This document shows, piece after piece, positions 4,784 to 8,998 of a DNA stretch of 64,000 nucleotides. The DNA is from Nocardioides hwasunensis (GTDB lineage Bacteria > Actinomycetota > Actinomycetes > Propionibacteriales > Nocardioidaceae), in the NCBI RefSeq assembly GCF_014779665.1, contig NZ_JACXYY010000007.1, positions 1 through 64,000 on the forward strand, written 5' to 3'. How positions within the stretch are numbered: the stretch's first letter is position 1; each line of letters begins with the position of its first letter. A program made the translations under genes and the position numbers. The notes under the pieces were generated by a model. The model saw nothing but the letters and a program-made list of their open reading frames with translations, searched no databases and was not told where the DNA came from.

Positions 4784-5422
4784 ATGGGCGAGCCTGAGTC
4801 GATCGAGGACTTCTACGACCGGGTCGCCGCGGCGACCGACGCCGAGGGTCGCCTGGCGGTGGCGATCGAGTCGATGCCCGGCTGGGACATCTTCCCGTTC
4901 GAGCTCGACGGCCTGCGGATCAAGCCCCTCGAGCCGCTGGCCGACGTCGAGCCCGCGCGCCGGGGAGAGGACCCGGCCGACTGCGACTGCCTCCGGCCAC
5001 CGACGCCGGAGCAGGAGGCACGCGTCGTGTGGAGCAACGAGCGGTGGGTCGTCTCCGACGTCGGCATGCAGCTGCCGATCACGTTGATCCTCAAGCCGCG
5101 CGCCCACCACGACCTCGCCGACCTGCCCGACGACCTCGCCTCGGAGATGGGCCGGCTGATGGTGGCGATCACCGCCGCCGTCGAGGCCCTCCCGAGCGTG
5201 GGTCGGTGCCACGTGGGTCGCTACGGGGACGGGGGCGCGCACCTGCACCCGTTCTTCTTCGGTCGTCCCGCGCGGATGCCGCAGCTGCGCGGGTCGTGCG
5301 TGCTCGACTGGGAGGAGAACCTGCCCGCCGTGCCCGACGACGTACGCCGCACCAACGCCGGGTTCGTCGGCCGCAGGCTAGTGGAGCGACTCGGCGGCGC
5401 CGGTCCGGCCTGGGAGGCCTGA
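4784..5422 (+). CDS. HIT-like superfamily protein
   Basis: A 212-residue protein starting at ATG 4784 (MGEPESIEDFYDRV). The middle LPITLILKPRAHHDLADLPDDL followed by a helix and then GGAHLHPFFFGRP matches the HIT/GalT-like fold, where LHPF stands in the place of the HxHxH catalytic triad segment. The motif is degenerate: only two histidines (HLH) remain in this segment, so nucleotide hydrolase or transferase activity is uncertain. The acidic Cys-containing segment DCDCLRPPTPEQEARVVW is also notable. It is transcribed divergently from the SRPBCC gene with only 73 bp between the starts, so the two promoters overlap. Confidence -1.
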   Translation: MGEPESIEDFYDRVAAATDAEGRLAVAIESMPGWDIFPFELDGLRIKPLEPLADVEPARRGEDPADCDCLRPPTPEQEARVVWSNERWVVSDVGMQLPITLILKPRAHHDLADLPDDLASEMGRLMVAITAAVEALPSVGRCHVGRYGDGGAHLHPFFFGRPARMPQLRGSCVLDWEENLPAVPDDVRRTNAGFVGRRLVERLGGAGPAWEA

Positions 5423-5455
5423 CCCGTCCGGCGCGGCACGACACCGTCGCGCGGG

Positions 5456-5989
5456 TCACAGCAGCTCTCGCAGCTCCTCGAGGAGCGCGCGGTAGCCCAC
5501 CCCGCTCAGGTGCAGCCCGTCGGCTGCGAACGCAGCCGCACCCAGCGACATGACGACCAGGTCGGCGCGCAGCACGCGCACGCCCTGCTCCTCGCAGCCG
5601 CGCACGGCCGCGTCGCGGTAGGTGTCCATGAGGTCGTTGGTGCGGTCGTTCGCGCGCTCCAGCCGGTCCTCGACGACACCCGGCGGGGCGACGTACACCG
5701 CGGACCGCGGATCGGGCAGCGACGCGAGGCCGGCGGAGAGCAGTTCGGCGAACTCGGCCACCGGCACCTGCTTCCACGGTGCCGCGTCGTTGCTGCCCAC
5801 CGAGACGACCACGCGGTCGGTGGCGAGCACACCGGCGGCAGACACCTGAGCGAGCAGGTCCCGCGACGACGACCCGCCGACCGCGCGGTTCGCGACCTCG
5901 CCCGGGAGTCGCGACGCCTGCCGCCGCAGCCGGGCCAGGTGACTGTCGCCGAGCAGCACGGTGCGGACGGTGCCGGCGGCGACGGACAT
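5456..5989 (-). CDS. SGNH/GDSL hydrolase family protein
   Basis: A 177-residue protein with all four SGNH blocks: GDSHLARL (block I, nucleophile Ser), AVGGSSS (block II Gly), VVSVGSNDAA (block III, GxND) and DGLHLS (block V, DxxH). The enzyme class comprises esterases, lipases and acyl hydrolases. No signal peptide is evident from the chosen start ATG 5989 (MSVAAGTVRTVLLGDS), so it is probably cytoplasmic. An upstream extension to 6118 is Arg-rich and looks non-coding. The substrate is unknown. It converges with the HIT-like gene 33 bp away. Confidence -1.
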   Translation of the reverse strand: MSVAAGTVRTVLLGDSHLARLRRQASRLPGEVANRAVGGSSSRDLLAQVSAAGVLATDRVVVSVGSNDAAPWKQVPVAEFAELLSAGLASLPDPRSAVYVAPPGVVEDRLERANDRTNDLMDTYRDAAVRGCEEQGVRVLRADLVVMSLGAAAFAADGLHLSGVGYRALLEELRELL

Positions 5990-6077: not shown

Positions 6078-6746
6078 TCAGGGAGCGTTGTCCCCGGCGT
6101 GCCCGCGCAGGAGCTCACCGAAGGGGGTCACGTCGGCCTCGACCTGCGTGCCGGACGTGCGCCGGGGCCGCGCGGCGAGGTCGGGCACGAACCCGCCGAC
6201 GCCGTAGCCGTCCTGGCTCAGCACCAGCGCCGCGAGCTCGGCGGCGGCGCGGCTGATGCGCTCGGAGAGACCGTGGCTGCCGAAGTCCTCCGTGGCCGCG
6301 AAGACCCCGGTGGGCACGACGACCGCGCGGAGGTAGGCGAAGAGCGGTCGCATCGCGTGGTCGAGGACCAACGAGTGCCGGGCCGACCCGGCCGTGGCGG
6401 CGACGAGGACCGGCGTACCGGTCAGCGAGTCCTTGTCGAGGGCGTCGAAGAACATCTTGAACAGACCGCTGTAGCCGCCGTTGAAGACCGGGGTCACCGC
6501 GACGAGCCCGTCGGCGGACGCAACCAGCTCCCGCAGCTCGGTCAGCCGCGGGGTGGGGACGCCACCGGTGACCATGAACGCGGCCAGCTCGGCGGCGACC
6601 TCGCGCAGCTCGACGAAGTCGACGGCGAGCGCCTCGCCGCGAGCGGTGGCCTGCGCCTGGGTGGCCTCGGCGAGCTGGTCGGCCAGCAGTCGGGTGGACG
6701 ACGGGACGGTGAGTCCCGCCGTCACCACGACGATGCGTCGGGTCAT
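6078..6746 (-). CDS. LLM-partnered FMN reductase, CE1759-type
   Basis: A 222-residue NADPH-dependent FMN reductase of the flavodoxin-like fold. MTRRIVVVTAGLTVPSSTRLLADQL is the N-terminal beta-strand and phosphate loop, and TPVFNGGYSGLFKMFFDALD is the flavin-binding segment typical of SsuE-like reductases. Its start overlaps the stop of the upstream LLM oxidoreductase (ATGA, 6743-6746), which indicates translational coupling. The pairing matches the known LLM-duo families CE1758/CE1759, where the reductase supplies reduced FMN to the monooxygenase. The C-terminus ends in a tail containing TPFGELLRGHAG, which resembles the N-terminus of the divergent TPR protein (see findings). Confidence -1.
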   Translation of the reverse strand: MTRRIVVVTAGLTVPSSTRLLADQLAEATQAQATARGEALAVDFVELREVAAELAAFMVTGGVPTPRLTELRELVASADGLVAVTPVFNGGYSGLFKMFFDALDKDSLTGTPVLVAATAGSARHSLVLDHAMRPLFAYLRAVVVPTGVFAATEDFGSHGLSERISRAAAELAALVLSQDGYGVGGFVPDLAARPRRTSGTQVEADVTPFGELLRGHAGDNAP

Positions 6747-7921
6747 GCCCGGACCTCGACCGGCTCCGCAGCGGACGCGGCGGCCTGCTCGGCCTGCATC
6801 TGCTTGACCCGCTCGAGCGCGGGCTCCACGAGGTGGAAGGGCGCGTCCGGACCGGCTGCGACGAGCGAGGCGTGGGTGGGCGGGTCGCTCGGCACGTGGG
6901 CCGGACGACGGCGCTCGAACTCCGCGCGCAGCACCGGCACGACCTCCGTGCCGAGCATCTCCAGCTGCTCCATCACCAGGGAGGCCGGGAGGCCGGCGTG
7001 GTCGATCAGGAAGAGCTGGCGCTGGTAGTCGCCGACGTAGTCGGCGAAGCCCAGTGTGCGCTCGATGACCTGCTCCGGGGTGCCGACGGTCAGCGGCGTC
7101 ATCTTCGTGAAGTCCTCCAGCGACGGTCCGTGGCCGTAGACCGGGGCGTTGTCGAAGTAGGGCCGGAACACGCGCTTGGCCTCCGCCTCGGTGGCACCCA
7201 TGAAGACCTGCCCGCCGAGCCCGACGTAGGCCTGGTCGGCCGCGCCGTGCCCGTAGAACTCGAAGCGACGGCGGTAGAGCGCCACCATCTGCTCGGTGTG
7301 CTCCTTGTTCCAGAAGATGTGGTTGTGGAAGAAGCCGTCGCCGTAGTAGGCGGCCTGCTCGGCGATCTCGGTGCTGCGGATCGAGCCGTGCCACACGAAC
7401 GGCGGCGTGCCGTCGAGCGGTGCCGGCGTCGAGGTGTAGCCCTGCAGCGGGGTGCGGAACTGGCCCTGCCAGTTGACGACCGGCTCGCGCCAGAGCTTGC
7501 GGAGCAGGTGGTAGTTCTCGACCGCGAGCTTGATGCCGTCGCGGATGTCCTTGCCGAACCACGGGTAGACCGGGCCGGTGTTGCCGCGCCCCATCATCAG
7601 GTCGACGCGGCCACCGGAGAGGTGCTGGAGGAAGGCGTAGTCCTCGGCGATCTTCACCGGGTCGTTGGTGGTGATCAGGGTGGTGCTCGTCGAGAGCAGC
7701 AGCTTGTCGGTCTTCGCGGCGATGTAGCCCAGGTGGGTCGTCGGCGAGGACACGACGAACGGAGGGTTGTGGTGCTCGCCGGTCGCGAAGACGTCGAGCC
7801 CGACCTCCTCGGCCTTGAGTGCCACGTCGGTCATGAGCGCGATCCGCTCGCCCTCCGACAGCACCGTGCCGGTGGTCGGGTCGGGCGTGACGTCGCCGAC
7901 GCTGAAGATGCCGAACTGCAT
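6743..7921 (-). CDS. LLM class flavin-dependent oxidoreductase, CE1758-type
   Basis: A 392-residue luciferase-like monooxygenase (TIM-barrel, FMNH2-dependent). The segment MQFGIFSVGDVTPDP begins the first strand, GEHHNPPFVVSSP is the typical LLM substrate/flavin loop, and LSGGRVDLMMGRGNTGPVYPWFGKD follows the family pattern. The start at ATG 7921 is preceded by a good ribosome binding site (AGGAGGACACC). Longer frames upstream run through the divergent promoter region. It forms a two-gene operon with the downstream FMN reductase. The substrate is unknown; relatives oxidise small organic compounds or participate in natural product metabolism. Confidence -1.
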   Translation of the reverse strand: MQFGIFSVGDVTPDPTTGTVLSEGERIALMTDVALKAEEVGLDVFATGEHHNPPFVVSSPTTHLGYIAAKTDKLLLSTSTTLITTNDPVKIAEDYAFLQHLSGGRVDLMMGRGNTGPVYPWFGKDIRDGIKLAVENYHLLRKLWREPVVNWQGQFRTPLQGYTSTPAPLDGTPPFVWHGSIRSTEIAEQAAYYGDGFFHNHIFWNKEHTEQMVALYRRRFEFYGHGAADQAYVGLGGQVFMGATEAEAKRVFRPYFDNAPVYGHGPSLEDFTKMTPLTVGTPEQVIERTLGFADYVGDYQRQLFLIDHAGLPASLVMEQLEMLGTEVVPVLRAEFERRRPAHVPSDPPTHASLVAAGPDAPFHLVEPALERVKQMQAEQAAASAAEPVEVRA

Positions 7922-8090
7922 GGTGTCCTCCTGCATAGATGACACGGTGTGGTTGAAGGTTGTACCACCTCCAACGAGCGTGCGACCTCCAGTATTCCTC
8001 CGAGGTGTCCGTGGAATCGCCGGGCACCCTCCCGCGTTGCACCGGCGTCCGGGCGCACGCTCGGAGGAGAACCACCCGAGAGGAGCGACG
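7922..8090. promoter_or_regulatory. Divergent promoter region, LLM duo / TPR-PPTase
   Basis: A 169-bp spacer separates the LLM oxidoreductase (minus) from the TPR gene (plus). It is less GC-rich near 7935-8000. It carries Shine-Dalgarno sequences for both flanking genes (AGGAGGACACC on minus, GAGGAGCGACG on plus). I could not pick out convincing -35/-10 hexamers or an operator. Confidence -1.
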
Positions 8091-8477
8091 ATGACCGACT
8101 TCACCCCCTTCGAGGACCTGCTGCGCGGACATGCGGGCCTGCTCGAGGACACCGTCCACGACCGCTGGGTGCGGGCCCAGGCGCTCTTCGAGGAGCGCGC
8201 CTACCGCGAGGCGGCCGTGCTGCTGGCCGAGCTGCTCGACGACCCCGGCGACGTGGTGCACGAGCTGACCGACGTACGCCTCCTGCTGGCGCGCTCGCTC
8301 TTCCACTCCGCCCAGCTCAACGGCACGATCCGCGTCGCCACCGAGCTGCTGGAGCACGACCCCAACGAGCCCTACGCCCACCTGCTCGTCGGTCGCGCCC
8401 TGCAGCGCCAGGGCCGCCAGGACGAGGCCCAGCCGCACCTGCGCCTGGCCGAGCTGCTCGGCGGCTACCGCAGCTGA
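8091..8477 (+). CDS. Tetratricopeptide repeat protein
   Basis: A 128-residue helical protein starting at ATG 8091. Helix pairs ALFEERAYREAAVLLAELLDD, LLLARSLFHSAQLNGTIRVATELLEHDP and PYAHLLVGRALQRQGRQDEAQ form about two and a half TPR units, with the typical Ala/Gly/Tyr positions. TPR proteins are docking scaffolds. The first residues TDFTPFEDLLRGHAG repeat the C-terminal tail of the neighbouring FMN reductase (TPFGELLRGHAG), which suggests that the two are linked functionally or by ancestry. It is 14 bp upstream of the phosphopantetheinyl transferase gene on the same strand. Confidence -1.
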   Translation: MTDFTPFEDLLRGHAGLLEDTVHDRWVRAQALFEERAYREAAVLLAELLDDPGDVVHELTDVRLLLARSLFHSAQLNGTIRVATELLEHDPNEPYAHLLVGRALQRQGRQDEAQPHLRLAELLGGYRS

Positions 8478-8491
8478 GCGCCGCGACCCCG

Positions 8492-8998
8492 GTGCCGTAC
8501 GACGTCCGCTGGCACGCCGCCGGCACCACCAGCAAGCGCGCCCTCGCGCTCCACGCCGCCGGCCACCTCGGGGTGACGCCGGACGTCGTGAACAGCGGGC
8601 GCCTGTGTCCTCGGTGCGGCTCGTCGAGGCACGGGCGCCCGTGGCTGCGCGCCTACGGCGTCGCCCACCACGTCTCCCTCTCGCGCTCGGGTCCGCACCT
8701 GCTCACCGTCCTCGCGGACGTGCCCGTCGGGATCGACGTGGAGTCAGTCGCCGACGTGGCCCGCGGCTGGGACGCCTCGCTCGTCCTCGCACCCGGTGAG
8801 TCGGCCGAGACCGACGTCGATCAAGCGCGGGCGTGGTCCCGCAAGGAGGCCGTGCTCAAGCAGCGCGGCACCGGGCTCCTCGCCCCCATGACCTCGGTCG
8901 TCCTGGCCGACCTCTCCGGTGAGCACTGGGCCGACCTCGACGCGCCCGTCGGCCACGTCGCCGCGGTCAGCTGGGCCTCCGCCACCGCCGGGGGGTAG
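8492..8998 (+). CDS. 4'-phosphopantetheinyl transferase superfamily protein
   Basis: A 168-residue protein with a GTG start at 8492. It carries the two diagnostic signatures of Sfp/AcpS-type transferases: VGIDVE (Mg-binding Asp and Glu) and the helix motif WSRKEAVLKQRGTG. HVSLSRSGPHLLTVL is the conserved preceding strand. The enzyme class moves the phosphopantetheine arm of coenzyme A to a serine of a carrier protein. At 168 residues it is shorter than Sfp-type enzymes (about 220). No carrier protein, PKS or NRPS gene is in the window. The TAG stop (8996-8998) lies inside the arm of a palindromic element. Confidence -1.
   Translation: MPYDVRWHAAGTTSKRALALHAAGHLGVTPDVVNSGRLCPRCGSSRHGRPWLRAYGVAHHVSLSRSGPHLLTVLADVPVGIDVESVADVARGWDASLVLAPGESAETDVDQARAWSRKEAVLKQRGTGLLAPMTSVVLADLSGEHWADLDAPVGHVAAVSWASATAGG

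Follow-up and report, generated by a model that had tools for sequence, protein, structure and literature searches.

The window, i.e., the whole stretch of 64,000 nucleotides from Nocardioides hwasunensis that was analysed, contains two neighbouring genes whose products share a short peptide, located at the C-terminus of one protein and at the N-terminus of the other; the question raised by the locus is what this peptide does in each of them and to which partner it might bind. The first protein is an FMN reductase (FMNR) of the CE1759 family, composed of 222 amino acids (6078..6746, minus strand), which matches TIGR04037 with 269.1 bits at a curated cut-off of 175.9 and for which the nearest solved structure is 3k1y. 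Its gene overlaps by four bases with that of a luciferase-like monooxygenase (LLM) of the CE1758 family (6743..7921, minus strand; TIGR04036, 672.7 bits, curated cut-off 479.1), which is proposed below as the putative receptor of both motifs. With cut-offs far exceeded and adjacent overlapping genes, the pair resembles the CE1758/CE1759 duo described by these models, to neither of which the other motif-bearing protein belongs. The latter is a TPR protein of 128 amino acids (8091..8477, plus strand), which is encoded divergently from the LLM across an intergenic region (7922..8090), matches PF14559 (E 5.4e-7) and has three predicted TPR repeats. Its identification as the type III secretion chaperone SctY (NF052415) was rejected, the score being 27.8 bits against a cut-off of 70. 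The TPR gene is followed by a phosphopantetheinyl transferase gene (8492..8998, plus strand), and the earlier note had seen in the peptide a link to a pair formed by these two; since the transferase is present in just 6 of the 29 loci compared, it was regarded as incidental and the idea of such a unit was given up.

The reductase ends in TPFGELLRGHAG followed by DNAP, the motif occupying residues 207-218 (6093..6128, minus strand), and the TPR protein begins with MTDF followed by TPFEDLLRGHAG, at residues 5-16 (8103..8138, plus strand). Both assignments draw on sequence, dN/dS and a predicted helix, together with conservation across the family for the FMNR and among orthologues for the TPR protein. 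The folded core of the reductase is joined to its motif by a linker of residues 180-206 (6129..6209, minus strand), which is predicted to be disordered on the basis of pLDDT and dN/dS. The two peptides are identical at 10 of 12 residues, while the best 12-residue match between shuffled FMNR sequences (n = 300) and the TPR protein was 8. A degenerate DNA pattern for PF..LLRGH was found twice in the genome of 4.4 Mb, in the FMNR and TPR genes, and gave no match in a reversed-genome control; a looser TPF-type pattern gave one extra match, inside another protein, which we take from its sequence to be ribosomal protein uL13. The motif is short and leucine-rich, as would suit a chance or convergent similarity of low information content, but the shuffling result and the confinement of the pattern to two neighbouring genes, in which orthologues conserve it, make this explanation very improbable. 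The shared peptide reported in the earlier note is thus confirmed at both ends, as a genome-unique pair that is kept in orthologous loci.

Conservation was assessed in a lineage set composed of the window and 27 Nocardioides-lineage loci, the latter taken from 29 loci of which the other two are from Streptomyces. All 28 TPR orthologues retain the core F[ED]x[LM]L[RA], two of them (L073 and L080) with small insertions ahead of it, and GHAG follows the core in 26, the remaining two having SPRG (L078) and SSRG (L086). On the reductase side, the tail F..LLRGH[AST]G was found in each of the 25 readable full partner FMNRs (the window and 24 loci), a set that leaves aside two FMNRs cut by the contig end (L075 and L084) and one lying in two frames (L083). 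Joint conservation in orthologous loci, which had been proposed as a check on the shared peptide, was therefore observed within the lineage. The second FMNR frame of L083 retains the ending DFADLLRGHAG; in this locus (Nocardioides sp. B-3, 5054-5702) the split over two reading frames represents either a pseudogene or a sequencing error. In L078 and L086, where GHAG is gone from the TPR protein, the genome's own FMNR retains it. A common variant block, LLRS[PS]RG...APFDRWLHAQEL, stands in place of GHAG in both TPR genes (3001-3384 in L078 and 3001-3384 in L086), which hints at recombination within the TPR gene or common descent.

The selection acting on the two copies was estimated by simple Nei-Gojobori counts, and in FMNR and TPR alike the motif had the lowest dN/dS among the regions compared. 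In the TPR protein, the value was 0.184 at residues 4-16 against 0.330 in the core; in the FMNR, it was 0.185 for the motif, 0.274 for the core and 0.352 for the linker (residues 179-205), which is itself fairly conserved inside the lineage, with an amino-acid identity of 0.797. For the narrower range of residues 7-13 of the TPR protein, the value rose to 0.316 and the advantage over the core was nearly gone, so that the strength of the TPR signal varies with the range chosen. Both motifs are under purifying selection. Codon identity at same-residue positions was 0.663 within genomes vs 0.677 between genomes, and the within-genome value was reached by 80% of 2000 permutations; a recent exchange of sequence between the FMNR and TPR genes, by transfer or gene conversion, was accordingly rejected, and the earlier suggestion that the sequence had passed from one gene to the other is unsupported as far as a recent event is concerned. 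It was also considered that the TPR N-terminus might be left over from an ancient copying of the 3' end of the FMNR gene, e.g., when the cluster was duplicated in tandem, and might do little today. Gene order varies between lineages, which indicates that rearrangements occurred, and saturated codons are what an old copy is expected to have; yet residues 4-16 of the TPR protein are under stronger purifying selection than its core, and the codon identities speak against recent copying or conversion. A functionless relic was hence judged quite improbable.

AlphaFold2 models were built on the lineage alignments, the FMNR being modelled as a monomer. The model of the TPR protein showed the three repeats at residues 22-124, mostly with high confidence, with six core helices and a pLDDT of at least 90 for 88 of the 128 residues; residues 1-20 had a pLDDT of about 50, with the motif as a predicted helix at 7-15. 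In the FMNR model, the core (residues 1-178) was folded, with weaker blocks within 121-160, and residues 180-222 had a pLDDT below 50, with the motif as a short predicted helix at 209-214. At low confidence, the models place each motif as a short helix in a flexible terminus that lies clear of the folded part of the protein. The chain of 3k1y, the nearest solved reductase, from C. diphtheriae, stops at the core and no tail is visible. The neighbours of the TPR protein found in the PDB by Foldseek included MamA, consensus TPRs, STUB1 and a designed TPR with an Hsp90 peptide (3kd7).

The occurrence of the tail across the reductase family was studied in 110 distinct FMNRs, which were collected ahead of the control set and are weighted towards the genus of the window. 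The pattern F..[LQYM][LM] was present in the last 40 residues of 105 of them, the strict [PS]F..LL tail in 80 and the LL.GH.G tail in 32. The five without the loose pattern are L083, with its broken reading, L055, L166, L172 and L151; though outside the pattern, L055 and L166 retain PFEERL and PFAERL, respectively. An LLM is encoded in the locus for 108 of the 110 FMNRs, the exceptions being L127, which starts at a contig end, and L126, with none within its 3.6 kb. Three FMNR-like paralogues (L192-L194) have no LLM in a stretch of 4.5-5 kb and no tail, and the tail is also absent from two FMNR-like paralogues next to which the LLM match is weaker or cut off (L195 and L209). Six further FMNRs stand by an LLM of the CE1758 type; four of these (L196, L197, L200 and L201) carry a version of the tail and two (L198 and L199) a different one. 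The latter two have the tail DLMRLATGGS in common, which is possibly a second docking peptide.

The co-occurrence of the two proteins was examined in a class sample of 394 genomes, 170 of which had an FMNR match (E ≤1e-40) and 114 a TPR-family match (E ≤1e-15). No TPR-family match at E 1e-15 was found in 73 of the 170 FMNR-positive genomes, in searches that scored the best candidates per genome and may thus have missed some TPRs. The TPR copy of the motif was seen solely beside the LLM-FMNR pair. By these distributions, the FMNR tail is family-wide, older and independent of the TPR protein, and it accompanies the LLM more closely than it does the TPR protein. The common docking motif suggested in the earlier note is hence borne out in part: within the Nocardioides lineage, both copies are conserved, lie on ends predicted to be flexible and are under purifying selection, but the two are asymmetric and the FMNR tail does without the TPR protein. 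Absence of the motif once the genes are apart, which the earlier note gave as a ground for refutation, does not hold for the FMNR, since 73 of the 170 FMNR-positive genomes gave no TPR relative; as stated above, the TPR copy was seen solely next to the pair.

Since so many FMNR-positive genomes are without a TPR match, the TPR protein is unlikely as the first receptor of the tail; and because it is the LLM rather than the TPR protein that the tail mostly accompanies, the LLM is the simplest first receptor. We infer that it would be the receptor of both motifs. Two other receptors were weighed. The groove of the TPR protein could receive the C-terminal tail of the FMNR, its own N-terminal copy acting as a pseudo-ligand that closes the groove until the reductase arrives. 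The TPR fold has peptide-binding relatives, including the designed TPR with bound Hsp90 peptide, and the FMNR motif sits C-terminally; on the other hand, the tail is kept in nearly all FMNRs while many FMNR-positive genomes gave no TPR match, which makes the groove unlikely as the original receptor, and the low pLDDT of the N-terminal helix gives no sign of a stable closed form. Binding to the TPR groove was considered unlikely. The other candidate is the core of the FMN reductase itself, the motif binding to the dimer partner or serving as an active-site lid, in which case the TPR copy would act on the reductase and not on the LLM. The absence of the tail from the three FMNR-like paralogues without LLM argues against this, as does its low confidence in the monomer model, even though the tail belongs to the reductase family as such, every genome of this kind offers the reductase's own core as a partner, and the 3k1y chain, stopping at the core, leaves room for tail contacts; there is little probability that this reading is the right one.

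The GHxG part of the peptide has a narrower distribution. It was found in none of the 16 same-genus FMNRs from genomes whose best TPR match had an E value of 5e-10 or weaker. This pointed at first to co-evolution. Strict co-occurrence of GHxG and the TPR protein was nevertheless rejected: beyond the genus, LL.GH.G is carried by six FMNRs that belong to two further families of the class (G164, G415, G368, G328, G138 and G235), and their genomes yielded no TPR protein with the motif. None was found in G138, G415 and G368; G164 has one weak TPR match (E 0.0015), which was unflagged by the motif search; and in G328 and G235 there are TPR relatives distant from the LLM, with N-termini that are without the motif. 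Hence, the GHxG extension is a trait of an FMNR subfamily, and it is the tail of this subfamily that the TPR copy resembles. The joint presence of the motif-bearing TPR and the GHxG tail within one lineage may reflect a single event.

The TPR gene itself keeps company with the monooxygenase. In all 27 Nocardioides-lineage loci, TPR and LLM are separated by 78-996 bases; TPR and LLM-FMNR are transcribed divergently in 23 of the 27, and the order TPR-LLM(-FMNR) is codirectional in the other four (L081-L084). Across lineages, the gene orders LLM-FMNR-TPR, TPR-LLM-FMNR and divergent were all seen, so that the linkage has outlasted rearrangement, in support of a functional tie that joins the TPR protein to the LLM-FMNR pair. 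Outside the lineage, 18 members of the TPR family scoring at least 100 bits were followed up. An LLM lies within 2 kb in 10 of these and at about 3.6, 8.5 and 10 kb in three more, while no LLM was found within 3-5 kb on either side of the remaining five. The LLMs concerned are of three kinds, namely CE1758, the Atu2307 family (L208 and L206) and an F420-type fusion of LLM and hemerythrin (L202), and in four loci (L087, L208, L206 and L202) the TPR relative stands near an LLM and no FMNR of this kind was found there. In L087 (1754-3327), from Streptomyces humi, a CE1758 LLM is followed by the TPR gene, and no FMNR was detected in the 6.3 kb locus. In L202 (3354-5228), the TPR relative is directly upstream of the F420-type luciferase-like domain that is fused to a hemerythrin domain.

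A rule by which the TPR family always stands by an LLM was rejected. When the best-scoring 30 loci from the 114 class-sample genomes with a TPR match were inspected with flanks of 1.5 kb, an LLM was present within 1.5 kb in 2 of the 26 that are outside the lineage, two of these 26 coming from genomes already among the 18 described above. The TPR-LLM association is recurrent, not general. Among the N-termini compared, the motif was seen only in TPR proteins of the Nocardioides lineage, and it is absent from the other LLM-linked TPRs. The N-termini of six TPR proteins from other genera (L087, L088, L010, L014, L213 and L214) share DRWA.[AT]LHLFD instead of the TPF motif.

The reading preferred here is that the LLM is the docking site of the FMNR tail and that the TPR N-terminus mimics the tail, competing for the site or sharing it, to which about an even chance is given. 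The shared peptide would then be a short helical docking motif. In the FMNR, it would be an ancient C-terminal anchor that keeps the reductase on its partner LLM and lets reduced FMN pass over a short distance. The TPR protein of one Nocardioides lineage bears the motif on its flexible N-terminus and may use it to bind to the same pocket, for which the LLM is the likeliest place. The TPR protein could thereby displace the reductase, or an LLM dimer could take up both, one at each of its two sites, and in this way the TPR protein would regulate or scaffold the monooxygenase; a further option is that it brings the LLM elsewhere. The more specific proposal, in which the TPR protein evolved a mimic of the CE1759 docking helix, is a rival for the LLM socket and so acts as a peptide-mimicry switch on flavin hand-over, is a tentative one, with rather less than an even chance of being correct.

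The passage of reduced flavin from reductase to monooxygenase occurs freely or by direct contact, depending on the system (as outlined in passages of PMC6165268). The SsuD/SsuE and MsuD/MsuE alkanesulfonate systems are similar in that a monooxygenase is likewise supplied by a separate NAD(P)H:FMN reductase (PMC8234197), and MsuE and SsuE are relatives of the FMNR in sequence and fold. They differ in that passages of this source describe a role for the C-terminus of the monooxygenase itself, not for a reductase tail, and no TPR mimic. The three TPR repeats recall TPR domains of the Hsp90-type and designed CTPR kinds, which bind terminal peptides; unlike these, the TPR protein described here carries the motif on its own N-terminus, where it matches the tail of another protein. 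In the open-licence literature, no paper was found on the role of the FMNR tail or on the link between LLM and TPR. The duo is already known, and the tail sequence lies within the curated family model, the last position of the TIGR04037 profile (199) being reached at FMNR residue 214, in the LLR of the motif. What the locus adds is a two-component flavin monooxygenase in which the reductase has a probable docking tail, imitated by a protein encoded next door. A terminal peptide that is family-wide in the reductases, together with a natural mimic next door, amounts to a concrete contact hypothesis with a ready-made competitor.
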